From a virus: a DNA stretch of 21,018 nt. Positions 13,072 through 21,018 of the stretch are shown in pieces. The translations under genes and the position numbers were made by a program. The first letter of the stretch is position 1, and the number at the start of each line of letters is the position of its first letter. The notes under the pieces were generated by a model. It saw only the letters and a program-made list of their open reading frames with translations. It did not search any database and was not told where the DNA came from. The stretch lies in IMG/VR virus record IMGVR_UViG_3300031862_000049, positions 1-21,018 of that record; one strand, written 5' to 3'.

Positions 13072-13551
13072 TTATTTCCACCGATTAACTCCTTTAATAT
13101 GGTCAGCAAGTTCAGGATGAAATTTTGGGTGATGACGACGATTTGTAAGTTCAAGATTTTCTGGGCGGTTATCATCATGAATTTTATTTTTATGATGAAC
13201 GATTTCCTGCGGTCTCAAATAGCGTCCAAGCACCTTTTCCATTACAAGACGATGTTCAAAAACATATCCTTGTTTTGTAGCAAATGGATGGTTAGGCATG
13301 AGAATATAAATATGACCCCGAGTATAACGACGACCGCCTTTCCAGCGCCCATTTTTCTCTTTGGAATGTTTGCCCCTCATACGAGATTTGGTTTCCGAAG
13401 AGAGAGTCCAATGTTTTCCTTTAGTATTAAGAGTGCCTCGAGCGGAGCAGGAACGAGAACAGTAAAAAGCACTGTTAACTCTTGCACAATTAACAGAAAA
13501 GATTTTACCACAATATTTACAAATTTTTTGAATTTGGCATTTATGACTCAT
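13072..13551 (-). CDS. HNH homing endonuclease with N-terminal zinc finger (159 aa)
   Basis: Residues 10-36 form a zinc-finger-like set: C-K-Y-C-G-K-x-F followed by FYCSRSCSARG. A NUMOD-type segment (GKHSKEKNGRWKGG, near residue 60) leads to the nuclease: GYVFEHRLVMEKVLGRYL, EIVHHKNKIHDDNRPENLEL, then HPKFHPEL. This is the HNH_3 layout with His119/His120 and the following Asn residues as the metal and catalytic set. Free-standing enzymes of this type cut a DNA site in a related phage lacking the gene and spread by repair. The gene lies on the reverse strand immediately before the tape measure gene and is A/T-rich relative to its neighbours. A 168-codon frame on the forward strand over the same span is a shadow. 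Start ATG at 13549-13551, with no Shine-Dalgarno. Confidence 0.88.
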   Translation of the reverse strand: MSHKCQIQKICKYCGKIFSVNCARVNSAFYCSRSCSARGTLNTKGKHWTLSSETKSRMRGKHSKEKNGRWKGGRRYTRGHIYILMPNHPFATKQGYVFEHRLVMEKVLGRYLRPQEIVHHKNKIHDDNRPENLELTNRRHHPKFHPELADHIKGVNRWK

Positions 13552-16874: not shown

Positions 16875-17111
16875 ATGGCAAAAGAAATTTTAACAATCGA
16901 GATAGAGGTTTCTGACGACGCTGAGGCTTATCGGATTTTGAATAGGATTAGTTTTGAGAATAAGATTGTCGGGGCTAAGTATAAGAAAAAGGATTTTATT
17001 TTTAATGAAACCAATCTGCCAAAGCATTTCCTCAAAAAGAAGGGGGAATATTTGACGGATGAGGAATTAAGAAATGGCAACGAAAGGAAAGAAATTGATG
17101 GAGGAACATAA
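16875..17111 (+). CDS. Small hypothetical protein, 3' end overlapped by an HNH gene (78 aa)
   Basis: ATG follows the upstream stop by one base. The product starts with a strand (EILTIEIEVSDDAEAYRIL), and is basic and helical afterwards (GAKYKKKDFIFNETNLPKHF, KKKGEYLTDEELRN). No family is recognised. Its last 38 bases are shared, in another frame, with the start of the HNH gene at 17074; the C-terminal NGNERKEIDGGT may have been created by that insertion rather than being ancestral. It lies between two fibre-type genes, so a small tail or fibre-assembly protein is plausible. Reality is likely because it fits the coupled run exactly. Confidence 0.6.
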   Translation: MAKEILTIEIEVSDDAEAYRILNRISFENKIVGAKYKKKDFIFNETNLPKHFLKKKGEYLTDEELRNGNERKEIDGGT

Positions 17112-17601
17112 AAGGAAATTAAGTTTGGCGAAACTAAAACTTTATAGAGAAAAAGGACATATAATTGGTTTTCAGAAAGGGCATCCGAACTATACAAAAA
17201 ATAGATATAAATTTACTAAAGAAGATTATCTAAAGGCGAGATTAAATAGAATTGTTTGGAATAAAGGGAAAAAGTGTCCGCAGTTATCTGGCGAGAATAA
17301 TGGTAATTGGAAAGGCGGAATAGATTTAGAAAATAAAAGATTGAAAAATAGTGAAGAATATAAAAATTGGCAATTATCAGTTTTTAAAAGAGATTATTGG
17401 ACTTGTCAGATTTGTGGATATAAGGGTGAGAAAATCATTGCACATCACATAAAAAATTGGTCGAAATATCCAAAATTAAGATTTGAAATTTTGAATGGTA
17501 TTACCCTTTGTAGGGTATGTCATTTCAAAATTCATTTATTAAATTATGGCACAATCAAGCAATGTATCAGCAGGACAAGATGCTACAGCTCTGTCTTATA
17601 A
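17074..17601 (+). CDS. HNH endonuclease inserted between fibre genes (175 aa)
   Basis: Residues 70-84 contain SGENNGNWKGG, a NUMOD3-type DNA-binding motif. The nuclease follows: VFKRDYWTCQICGYKG, IIAHHIKNWSKYPKLRFEI, NGITLCRVCHFKIH. Cys111, Cys114, Cys146 and Cys149 would bind zinc, and His124/His125 belong to the active site. The gene is much richer in A/T than its neighbours and overlaps the preceding gene by 38 bases and the following fibre gene by 56, so its ends fit tightly between them. The extra 20 residues after C-x(2)-H are read through the next gene in another frame and are unlikely to be functional. An alternative start is the ATG at 17098. It is probably a mobile homing-type enzyme. 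Confidence 0.85.
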   Translation: MATKGKKLMEEHKRKLSLAKLKLYREKGHIIGFQKGHPNYTKNRYKFTKEDYLKARLNRIVWNKGKKCPQLSGENNGNWKGGIDLENKRLKNSEEYKNWQLSVFKRDYWTCQICGYKGEKIIAHHIKNWSKYPKLRFEILNGITLCRVCHFKIHLLNYGTIKQCISRTRCYSSVL

Positions 17602-18832: not shown

Positions 18833-18846
18833 AGAATCGGCTTGAT

Positions 18847-18864
18847 GCTTTATTGCAATAAAGC
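18847..18864. promoter_or_regulatory. 18-bp perfect palindrome, candidate operator
   Basis: GCTTTATTGCAATAAAGC reads the same on both strands. It starts about 8 nt after the expected start site of P2, a place where a bound dimer repressor would block transcription. It may also act as an RNA hairpin. The 53-aa helix-turn-helix protein at 19910 is one candidate ligand; this is inference. Confidence 0.55.
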
Positions 18865-19848: not shown

Positions 19849-19878
19849 TTGACAAAGGGTCTTGCTTTTTGGTAATAT
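19849..19878 (+). promoter_or_regulatory. Promoter for the helix-turn-helix gene
   Basis: TTGACA (19849-19854, perfect -35), an 18-nt spacer, then TAATAT (19873-19878) preceded by TGG. It begins 9 nt after the integrase stop, and shares GGGCTTGACAAA with promoter P1. Start of transcription is expected near 19885, giving a leader of about 25 nt. Confidence 0.75.
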
Positions 19879-19909: not shown

Positions 19910-20071
19910 ATGAAAAAGCACGACACTAAAGAAAAATTGGAAAGGAATTTGAAGGTAGCGAAACTTTATTATAAAGGTTCTTATACTTTGAGAGGATTGG
20001 CAAGGGTTTTCAGGTTAAGTCATCCTCGGATTTTGGCTATCGCGAAGAAATACAGAAGAAGATTGAAATAG
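19910..20071 (+). CDS. Small helix-turn-helix DNA-binding protein (53 aa)
   Basis: ATG at 19910 opens 53 codons ending in TAG at 20069-20071. After a charged helix (EKLERNLKVAKLYYKG) comes YTLRGLARVFRLSHPRILAI, the spacing of a helix-turn-helix with a second helix LARVF and recognition helix HPRILAIAKKY, ending RRRLK. It is small and basic, like phage Cro, excisionase or resolvase-type DNA-binding proteins. It has its own strong promoter and sits between the integrase and a small-RNA unit, so control of lysogeny or excision is plausible but not shown. No Shine-Dalgarno is seen. Confidence 0.7.
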   Translation: MKKHDTKEKLERNLKVAKLYYKGSYTLRGLARVFRLSHPRILAIAKKYRRRLK

Positions 20072-20072
20072 C

Positions 20073-20101
20073 TTGATTGATGTTCTTTAAAAAGTTATAA
20101 T
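20073..20101 (+). promoter_or_regulatory. Promoter of the 20108-20228 RNA
   Basis: TTGATT (20073-20078), 17-nt spacer, perfect TATAAT (20096-20101). Transcription would begin near 20108, only a few bases before the left arm of the long helix described next. Confidence 0.75.
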
Positions 20102-20107
20102 TAAATA

Positions 20108-20228
20108 AAACAACCATTTAGGCTGTCAGTTTAAAGAGTCCTCCGATAGCGGTTAAGTGGGCAAAGCGGTAAAGGGTAGCGTTTGAAGCAAGTTCAACTG
20201 GCAGTCCTAAATGGACTGCCAGTTTTTT
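20108..20228 (+). ncRNA. Candidate structured small RNA or attenuator with two exclusive folds (about 120 nt)
   Basis: No ORF fits here. In fold A, CCATTTAGG-CTGTCAGTT (20114-20131) pairs with AACTGGCAG-CCTAAATGG (20196-20204 and 20206-20214), 18 bp with one G-U and one bulged T, closing the whole RNA. In fold B the same right-hand bases form the terminator stem at 20196-20224. The folds cannot coexist, as in a terminator/antiterminator switch. The enclosed part has short hairpins TTGAA/TTCAA (20183-20197) and CCG/CGG (20143-20152), and AGCGGTTAAG / AGCGGTAAAG as an imperfect direct repeat. Own promoter and terminator make it a free-standing unit, or an attenuator for the genes from 20272. 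It matches no RNA family I can name. Confidence 0.65.
20196..20228 (+). terminator. Strong Rho-independent terminator
   Basis: AACTGGCAGTCC (20196-20207) pairs perfectly with GGACTGCCAGTT (20213-20224) around TAAAT, with a T-run at 20223-20228. The 12-bp perfect stem makes it the strongest terminator in the window. Its left arm is also the right arm of the alternative long helix. Confidence 0.88.
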
Positions 20229-20235
20229 ATTTGTG

Positions 20236-20244
20236 AAAGGTCGG
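20236..20244 (+). repeat. AAAGGTCGG, variant of the intergenic motif
   Basis: Eight of nine bases match AAAGGTCGA. It is 27 nt before the ATG at 20272, immediately after the terminator. Confidence 0.35.
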
Positions 20245-20271
20245 GCTGGCAGAGATAACAATTAAAAAGCT

Positions 20272-20502
20272 ATGACTGAACAAGAAGAAAAAGAAATCGT
20301 TAGGGTTTGCGGTAAGGACTACGATTATCTGGATATTCCGGCTTACATCAGGAAACGGGACGAAGACGAGGCGAGAGCTTTGTGCCAGTTGGAGGAGGAA
20401 TGGAGACAAGAAGAAGCTGAAAGATTAGAAAAATTATTGAAGGTGTCCAAAGTGGAAATTGGATTGCCTTTGCAAAAAGATGAAGAAGACGAAGAACAAT
20501 AA
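20272..20502 (+). CDS. Small acidic hypothetical protein upstream of the Rad52-like gene (76 aa)
   Basis: The product is highly charged: a folded-looking start IVRVCGKDYDYLDIPAYIRK, then a long helix (DEARALCQLEEEWRQEEAER), and an acidic end DEEDEEQ. No family is recognised. The last 23 bases overlap the start of the Rad52-like gene, so the two are very likely translated as a pair. The acidic tail next to a partner with a highly basic N-terminus could reflect contact between the two proteins, a guess only. It is the first gene after the strong terminator, and the leader has no Shine-Dalgarno. Confidence 0.65.
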   Translation: MTEQEEKEIVRVCGKDYDYLDIPAYIRKRDEDEARALCQLEEEWRQEEAERLEKLLKVSKVEIGLPLQKDEEDEEQ

Positions 20503-21018
20503 AAAGAAAAAGGTTGCCAAAAGGAAAAAGAAAACGAGTTTGGCACTAACATTGATTCCGGCTCCTCTAAAGAAAGATCAATTGTTGGCGGTCCTCCAGA
20601 GAACTCCGGTGAGGCATATCTATCGTCGACCAGCGAAGGGCGGTGGCGAATGGGAATATGTGACGGGGGTCTATGTCAAGAAAGTCCTCAATTATGTTTT
20701 CGGGTGGTTGTGGGACTTTGAGGTTAAGGAGCACGGCAGGGAGAAGGCAGAAGAAGGGGATCTGGTCTGGGTCCTGGGAAGATTGACGATTAAAAACAAG
20801 TCGGGGAAACCAATGATTGTCAAGGAGCAATTCGGCAGGGCTGATGTGAAGTTCAAGAGGGGGACGAAGATCCCTTTGGATTTCGGGAATGACTTGAAGG
20901 CAGCGGCAACTGATGCTCTCAAAAAGTGCGCTTCGGAACTGGGGATCGCTTCGGACATCTACGGGAAGAATGAGTTTATGGAAATTCAGAAGGTAGATAA
21001 GGGATTCGTTCCTCCTAA
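20480..21018 (+). CDS. Rad52-like single-strand annealing protein (3' truncated)
   Basis: ATG at 20480 lies inside the upstream gene and begins a frame that stays open to the right edge (179 full codons seen; the final TAA-like bases are out of frame). The first 20 residues are almost all Lys/Asn. Then TPVRHIYRRPAKGGGEWEYV, GVYVKKVLNYVFGWLWDFEV, LGRLTIKNKSGKPMIVKEQFGRADV, which I give as separate segments, and NDLKAAATDALKKCASELGI with SDIYG match the Rad52/Rad22 family (DLKAAATDALKKCA is the hallmark). Phage versions anneal single strands in recombination and replication. The rest of the gene, where Rad52 proteins bind single-strand-binding protein, is outside the window. It marks the beginning of the early DNA-metabolism region. 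Confidence 0.88.
   Translation, partial: MKKTKNNKKKKVAKRKKKTSLALTLIPAPLKKDQLLAVLQRTPVRHIYRRPAKGGGEWEYVTGVYVKKVLNYVFGWLWDFEVKEHGREKAEEGDLVWVLGRLTIKNKSGKPMIVKEQFGRADVKFKRGTKIPLDFGNDLKAAATDALKKCASELGIASDIYGKNEFMEIQKVDKGFVPP

Follow-up and report, generated by a model that had tools for sequence, protein, structure and literature searches.

A predicted phage attachment site at the 3' end of rpsI that may act as an integration-sensing switch

Between the integrase gene and the recombination genes of a phage genome, a promoter, a short leader and a strong intrinsic terminator follow one another, and the leader can pair with part of the terminator. What is such a unit for, and how would the genes beyond it be expressed? 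The window analysed here, an entire virus record (21,018 bases), runs from head and tail genes through a tyrosine integrase (Int), a 53-aa ORF, the unit at 20073-20228 and a 76-aa ORF to a Rad52-like protein (Table 1).

Layout of the locus and its promoter-terminator unit

Homologues of the window capsid that are 55-64% identical were found within Patescibacteria genomes; as judged from these homologies, the phage host therefore very probably belongs to that phylum. The 53-aa ORF gave no match in Pfam or PHROG. The Rad52-like ORF runs past the end of the record, and its true start is probably later than 20459. Two HNH endonuclease genes, possibly of the homing type, are located at 13072-13551 (minus strand) and 17074-17601 (plus strand). 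The promoter behind int contains a spacer, TTGACAAAGNGTCTT, that is conserved in L002 (at 2124) and L230 (at about 2400), with a different small ORF behind it. Upstream of int, GGCTTGATGCT is common to the window (18841-18851) and L007 (at about 2023) within structured leaders that otherwise differ.

Table 1. Features of the window from the integrase gene to the end of the record.
Feature	Position	Strand	Basis or remark
Tyrosine integrase (Int), 291 aa	18965..19840	+	PF00589 E 2e-25; weak PF02899 at residues 8-84
Promoter TTGACA-18-TAATAT of the small ORF behind int	19849..19878	+	conserved in relatives L002 and G666
53-aa ORF	19910..20071	+	HTH-like by eye
Promoter P, TTGATT-17-TATAAT, 10/12	20073..20101	+	G666 attR equivalent TTGATG-17-TATAAT
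seg1, leader segment, proposed antiterminator strand	20114..20131	+	complementary to T2 left arm and loop
attP core, host rpsI (S9) 3' end, VKWAKR-stop (GTTAAGTGGGCAAAGCGGTAA)	20152..20172	+	homology to G666, G366, G718 and L007 att cores
T2 left arm and loop, seg1 partner	20196..20214	+	pairing with seg1
Intrinsic terminator T2, perfect 12-bp stem 20196-20224, 5-nt loop TAAAT, U tract	20196..20228	+	proposed attL insulator after integration
AAAGGTCG motif directly 3' of T2	20236..20243	+	recurs after T2 in several relatives
76-aa ORF, first early gene past attP	20272..20502	+	ORF list
Rad52-like single-strand annealing protein	20459..21018	+	PF04098 E 5e-8; phrog_37405 E 6e-50

The initial annotation had described a promoter and a perfect 12-bp terminator with no ORF between them, and all three statements held: both signals are present at the listed positions, the terminator stem being followed by TTTTTTATTT, and the only ORF of at least 50 aa over 20073-20228 is a 60-aa minus-strand ORF that starts at the edge. 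The 18-bp pairing claimed for the two ends of the unit was likewise reproduced. The helix formed by 20114-20131 and 20196-20214 contains 18 pairs, one of them G-U, and one bulged U at 20205; its duplex energy is -25.5 kcal/mol, and none of 2000 dinucleotide-shuffled versions of the upstream stretch was as good. Within 2 kb upstream, seg1 is the best partner for the left arm of T2 (-26.1 vs -21.9 for the runner-up), and it is the top partner of this arm over the whole window on both strands, T2 itself excepted.

On its other side, the right arm of T2 can alternatively pair just downstream (CTGCCAG..CTGGCAG, 20216-20249); the equivalent in L002 (2333-2368) reads TTCGCCAG..CTGGCGAA, with two paired changes, both cases being read by eye. 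The AAAGGTCG motif is found 5-20 nt past the terminator also at L002:2353, after T2 in L267 and in the reverse complement of L220, and at attL of G168.

A search of Rfam at gathering and relaxed thresholds gave no match in the window, in agreement with the earlier remark that no known RNA family fits, and ten related loci gave only a tRNA in L004. No tRNA or tmRNA was returned by a dedicated search. In viral contigs, the exact core of the unit was not found, the pattern AAAGGTCGGGCTGGC gave 119 stretches and was too unspecific, and a search with the promoter pattern yielded G001 and one chance match in a capsid gene.

Identity of the unit as an attachment site

The stretch had been annotated as a free-standing RNA unit, possibly a free phage small RNA. 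This description gave way to that of an attachment site (attP): the unit follows Int and a small ORF, it holds the 3' end of a host gene, and in prophages its two halves sit at opposite ends of the element. The integrases nearest to that of the window among 384 genomes include those of the Patescibacteria genome G666 (71% identity), of G366 (55%) and of G718 (40%), all located at an rpsI-type core. In these three, a core encoding ...QWSKR-stop lies downstream of Int and is followed by host DNA, and at attL a terminator lies downstream of the host S9 and its stop codon. In G718, the core occurs a second time as the terminal part of rpsI, which encodes ribosomal protein S9 (PF00380, E 7e-39). 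The attR of G666 aligns with the window over the promoter TTGAT-17-TATAAT, the leader start CATTTAG and the subsequent S9 3' end, and WAKR-stop at 20158-20172 is common to the window core and to host S9 proteins, which were assigned by PF00380.

Because core, promoter and CATTTAG leader align with attR of G666, 20073-20228 is assigned as the attP of a phage predicted with strong confidence to integrate at the 3' end of host rpsI. Neither the host nor the prophage of the window phage itself was found, as a BLAST comparison of the unit with phages and with 380 Patescibacteria genomes gave chance matches only; the window core is therefore assigned by homology. Positional equivalents of T2 are present at attL in G666, G366, G718, G168, G180 and G240. 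Readings as a 6S-like RNA, as P4/P1 c4-type RNA immunity and as boxA/nut antitermination were dropped because the prophage comparison placed a host-gene 3' end inside the unit.

The same arrangement recurs in other elements. L007 has the order of the window: Int, a short HTH ORF, promoter, leader, terminator, small ORFs and Rad52. In the Patescibacteria prophages G168 and G180, Int, an HTH-containing ORF, a promoter and a structured leader form a module that ends at the host chromosome. Their targets are the 3' ends of secA (G168) and gapA (G180), the proteins being confirmed; the leader lies at attR, and a terminator with a leader-complementary left arm lies at attL, directly past the host stop codon. 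The gapA gene is also the target in the prophage G240 and in the free phage G012, which has an intact attP, in the identical order Int, ORF, P, leader, att, T2. Upstream of the leader, each of the nine elements compared has a promoter-like site (9/12 or better). Among the Rad52 relatives, the nearest one, L002, retains the upstream promoter and the sequence from the right arm of T2 onward but lacks the unit itself, and its record shows no integrase related to that of the window.

Some further structures were seen in these loci. Two interleaved (crossing) helices lie directly 5' of the Rad52 gene at L002:2588-2656 and L007:3713-3828, for example AAGGGTAT/ATACCCTT with AGAGGTGAGGGCTC/GAGCTCTCACCTCT (fold z -4.8 in L002), which may be a pseudoknot or a switch and possibly serve autoregulation of the annealing protein. 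In L004 (2638-2803), a 55-aa HTH ORF is followed by a strong promoter and an RNA of 120 nt, rod-like and paired at its ends (z -4.6), the interior of which reads ...KPHTIKRAISILK-stop and is perhaps another host gene end; this unit is similar to that of the window, has no terminator and was left out of the comparison. Tandem rpsI 3' ends were observed in L274 (rpsI of G168; three), L273 (rpsI of G299; two) and L275/L276 (G664; several) and are probably scars or accreted islands from repeated integration. One of the rpsI islands of G664 encodes a DNA methyltransferase.

Pairing of leader and terminator across elements

The initial annotation named loss of the pairing in homologues as one observation that would speak against it; the relatives keep the pairing despite differing sequences. 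Complementarity of leader and T2 is retained in nine elements with three target genes (rpsI, secA and gapA). In a swap test, duplex energies were calculated between each leader region, cut at 150 nt before the core, and each T2 left arm plus loop of the nine elements, T2 being the next terminator past the host stop codon as picked by eye. The element's own leader ranked first for eight of the nine T2s and second for the remaining one, and none of 200,000 random assignments reached the energy sum of the matched pairs. Taken individually, the pairing lay below 1% of shuffles in seven of nine elements and was not significant in G718 (51/1000) and G012 (105/1000). When 74 terminators in the collected related sequences were scanned, the pairing of an upstream segment with a left arm was strongest in L007 and the window. 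For G666, the left arm of T2 was predicted from the attR leader CTCATTTAGATTCTGGCTGGGG as resembling CCCCAGCCAGAATCTAAATG before attL was read; at attL, on a separate contig, left arm and loop read CCCGCCAGTTCTAAATGA.

In the window, G666 and G366 the pairing extends into the terminator loop. The leader complements this loop rather than copying it, and an origin of seg1 by direct duplication of the terminator was therefore rejected for these three elements. Apparent pairings between leader and terminator in four capsid relatives and L010 were set aside, as the leader there falls within the promoter spacer and is therefore not transcribed.

Integration removes the partner of T2. In six integrated prophages, the 150 nt of host sequence preceding T2 contained no partner comparable to the leader, the energies being -6.7 to -14.3 compared with -12.9 to -24.4 kcal/mol for the leaders. 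The pairing is also absent (z about 0) from two restriction-type rpsI islands in G664 that have related integrases; it is therefore not needed for integration as such.

These observations bear on the question whether the repeats act as DNA, either as inverted arm sites flanking the attP core, to be bound by Int or by an excision factor, or by forming a cruciform, with RNA pairing incidental. Inverted repeats do lie 15-21 nt from the att core in several elements, and tyrosine recombinases frequently use arm sites. However, the integrases of the window and G666 appear to hold only core-binding and catalytic parts of XerC/D size (291-292 aa). In the window protein, the catalytic domain spans residues 108-277, the SAM-like match at 8-84 is below the cut-off, an N-terminal extension of the arm-binding kind is not apparent, and 291 aa seem to leave no room for an additional domain. 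Moreover, the repeats coincide exactly with the left arm and loop of T2 and from one element to the next are wholly different, and the rpsI islands of G664 lack them in spite of their related integrases. We thus regard action as DNA sites as unlikely.

The two pairings of the T2 left arm and loop exclude each other, and the attenuator-like arrangement suggested earlier was supported in that the long helix and T2 share these nucleotides. Which of them prevails depends in the predictions on how far transcription has proceeded. The equilibrium fold of the full transcript retains T2 and pairs 20114-20127 with 20146-20160 (-41.3 vs -35.2 kcal/mol for the long helix), seg1 of the window being also able to pair locally with the att core. 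The long helix is favoured only before the right arm of T2 is transcribed, with a probability of about 0.98 for window transcripts ending at 20214-20217. In the joined attP RNAs of the window, L007, G666, G366 and G168 (five of five), the probability of the antiterminator is at least 0.9 until the right arm appears. Once this arm is complete, the antiterminator is mostly or wholly gone in the window, G666 and G366, partially retained in L007 and still favoured in G168; the minimum free energy at equilibrium favours T2 over the antiterminator in the window, L007 and G666. Since the equilibrium fold keeps T2, any action of the antiterminator would have to be kinetic, and read-through may be partial.

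The preference for T2 at equilibrium, together with the lack of an ORF between P and T2, would also suit a simpler function, namely a short phage RNA of about 120 nt (20108-20228), which would either be a stable small RNA or mark a plain stop ahead of the early genes, and in which seg1 is not an antiterminator. G240 and G012 point the same way, having a terminator before att: seg1 doubles there as the right arm of this extra upstream terminator, so that transcripts from P would stop before att, and control of the early genes may therefore differ in these two elements. Such an RNA leaves unexplained, however, why seg1 is complementary to the left arm and loop of T2 across elements and why the halves flank att, and its inner part is the 3' end of a host gene, not a conserved RNA, with no Rfam match. 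We consider it quite improbable.

A proposed switch and its relation to known systems

We consider it likely that attP doubles as an integration-sensing switch, the T2 insulator being on when the phage is integrated and off after excision by means of a sequence-specific antiterminator. Observed are the order of the elements, the att sites, the position of T2, the complementarity and its loss upon integration; we infer an active promoter P, read-through brought about by seg1 and early genes that depend on it. When the phage is free and circular, RNA from P would read seg1, att core, T2 left arm, loop and T2 right arm in this order. seg1 would capture the left arm and loop while the right arm is still untranscribed, and some or all polymerases would thereby pass T2 into the early genes, which are the 76-aa ORF, the Rad52-like annealing protein and those beyond. 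Integration would cut between seg1 and T2. In the prophage, P and seg1 would remain at attR and face host DNA, and T2 would lie at attL directly past the restored rpsI stop codon without an antagonist, where it could end rpsI transcription and shield the early genes. The earlier suggestion of a control point between lysogeny and replication was right in spirit; the sensed input is probably integration or excision itself and not a ligand.

It also seems rather likely that such switches form a widespread class in Patescibacteria phages, with an antiterminator strand and a dedicated insulator terminator on either side of attP, in which a DNA rearrangement sets transcription of the early operon and each pair co-evolves whatever its sequence and target gene (rpsI, secA, gapA). 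If true, this would be a genetic switch with the integration state of the DNA as its input and one base-pairing decision as its working part. It would explain how a strong shield terminator can stand at the end of a temperate phage, yet the genes beyond it be expressed once the phage is excised. Patescibacteria phages are poorly known, and the signature of a leader complementary to a terminator across a host-gene 3' end would be usable for finding attP and prophage borders in this phylum.

Neither a pairing antiterminator split by attP nor one across att in elements integrating at the 3' ends of rpsI or other housekeeping genes was found described in the literature searched, the coverage of which was partial. 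Integration at the 3' end of rpsI (streptococcal ICEs) and of other housekeeping genes is similar in that the element brings a replacement gene end.

The closest functional likeness is to Tn916, in which an insulator terminator, T1, lies near one end and a promoter at the opposite end drives the operon only after circularisation; its canT is an RNA antiterminator that lets transcription pass, is processive and works on heterologous terminators (PMC11658703). In both cases, a terminator at the end would shield the integrated element, and after excision transcription from a promoter at the other end would cross the joint and get past the terminator by means of an RNA element. Unlike canT, which is terminator-independent and processive, each leader described here is predicted to pair only with its own T2, at the left arm and loop, and the element is a phage in which the 3' end of a host gene separates the two parts. 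A processive mechanism of the Tn916 canT, HK022 put or lambda nut type, in which leader RNA modifies polymerase to ignore T2 and later terminators and the pairing with T2 is secondary, could draw on the structured leaders that follow P in several relatives and on a boxA-like TGTTCTTTAAAAA at 20081-20093. This string, however, is part of the promoter spacer, ahead of the expected start, and is not the same in G666; the leaders share no common structure, and what is constant is the sequence-specific complementarity to the own T2. We hold processive antitermination to be very improbable.

In the proposed switch, the position of the RNA element recalls phage lambda, where sib is an RNA regulatory element across attP from int and integration parts sib from int. 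Here, too, an RNA element lies across attP downstream of int. In lambda, sib reduces the expression of int as an RNase III/terminator element; here, by contrast, base pairing would neutralise a terminator of the early operon. As a downstream element of int, sib is described in PMC5300877. Finally, the competition of an upstream strand with the right arm of the terminator for its left arm resembles trp-type attenuators and the expression platforms of riboswitches. In contrast to these, the choice would be set by a DNA rearrangement and not by a ribosome or a ligand, the two strands being physically parted in the prophage.
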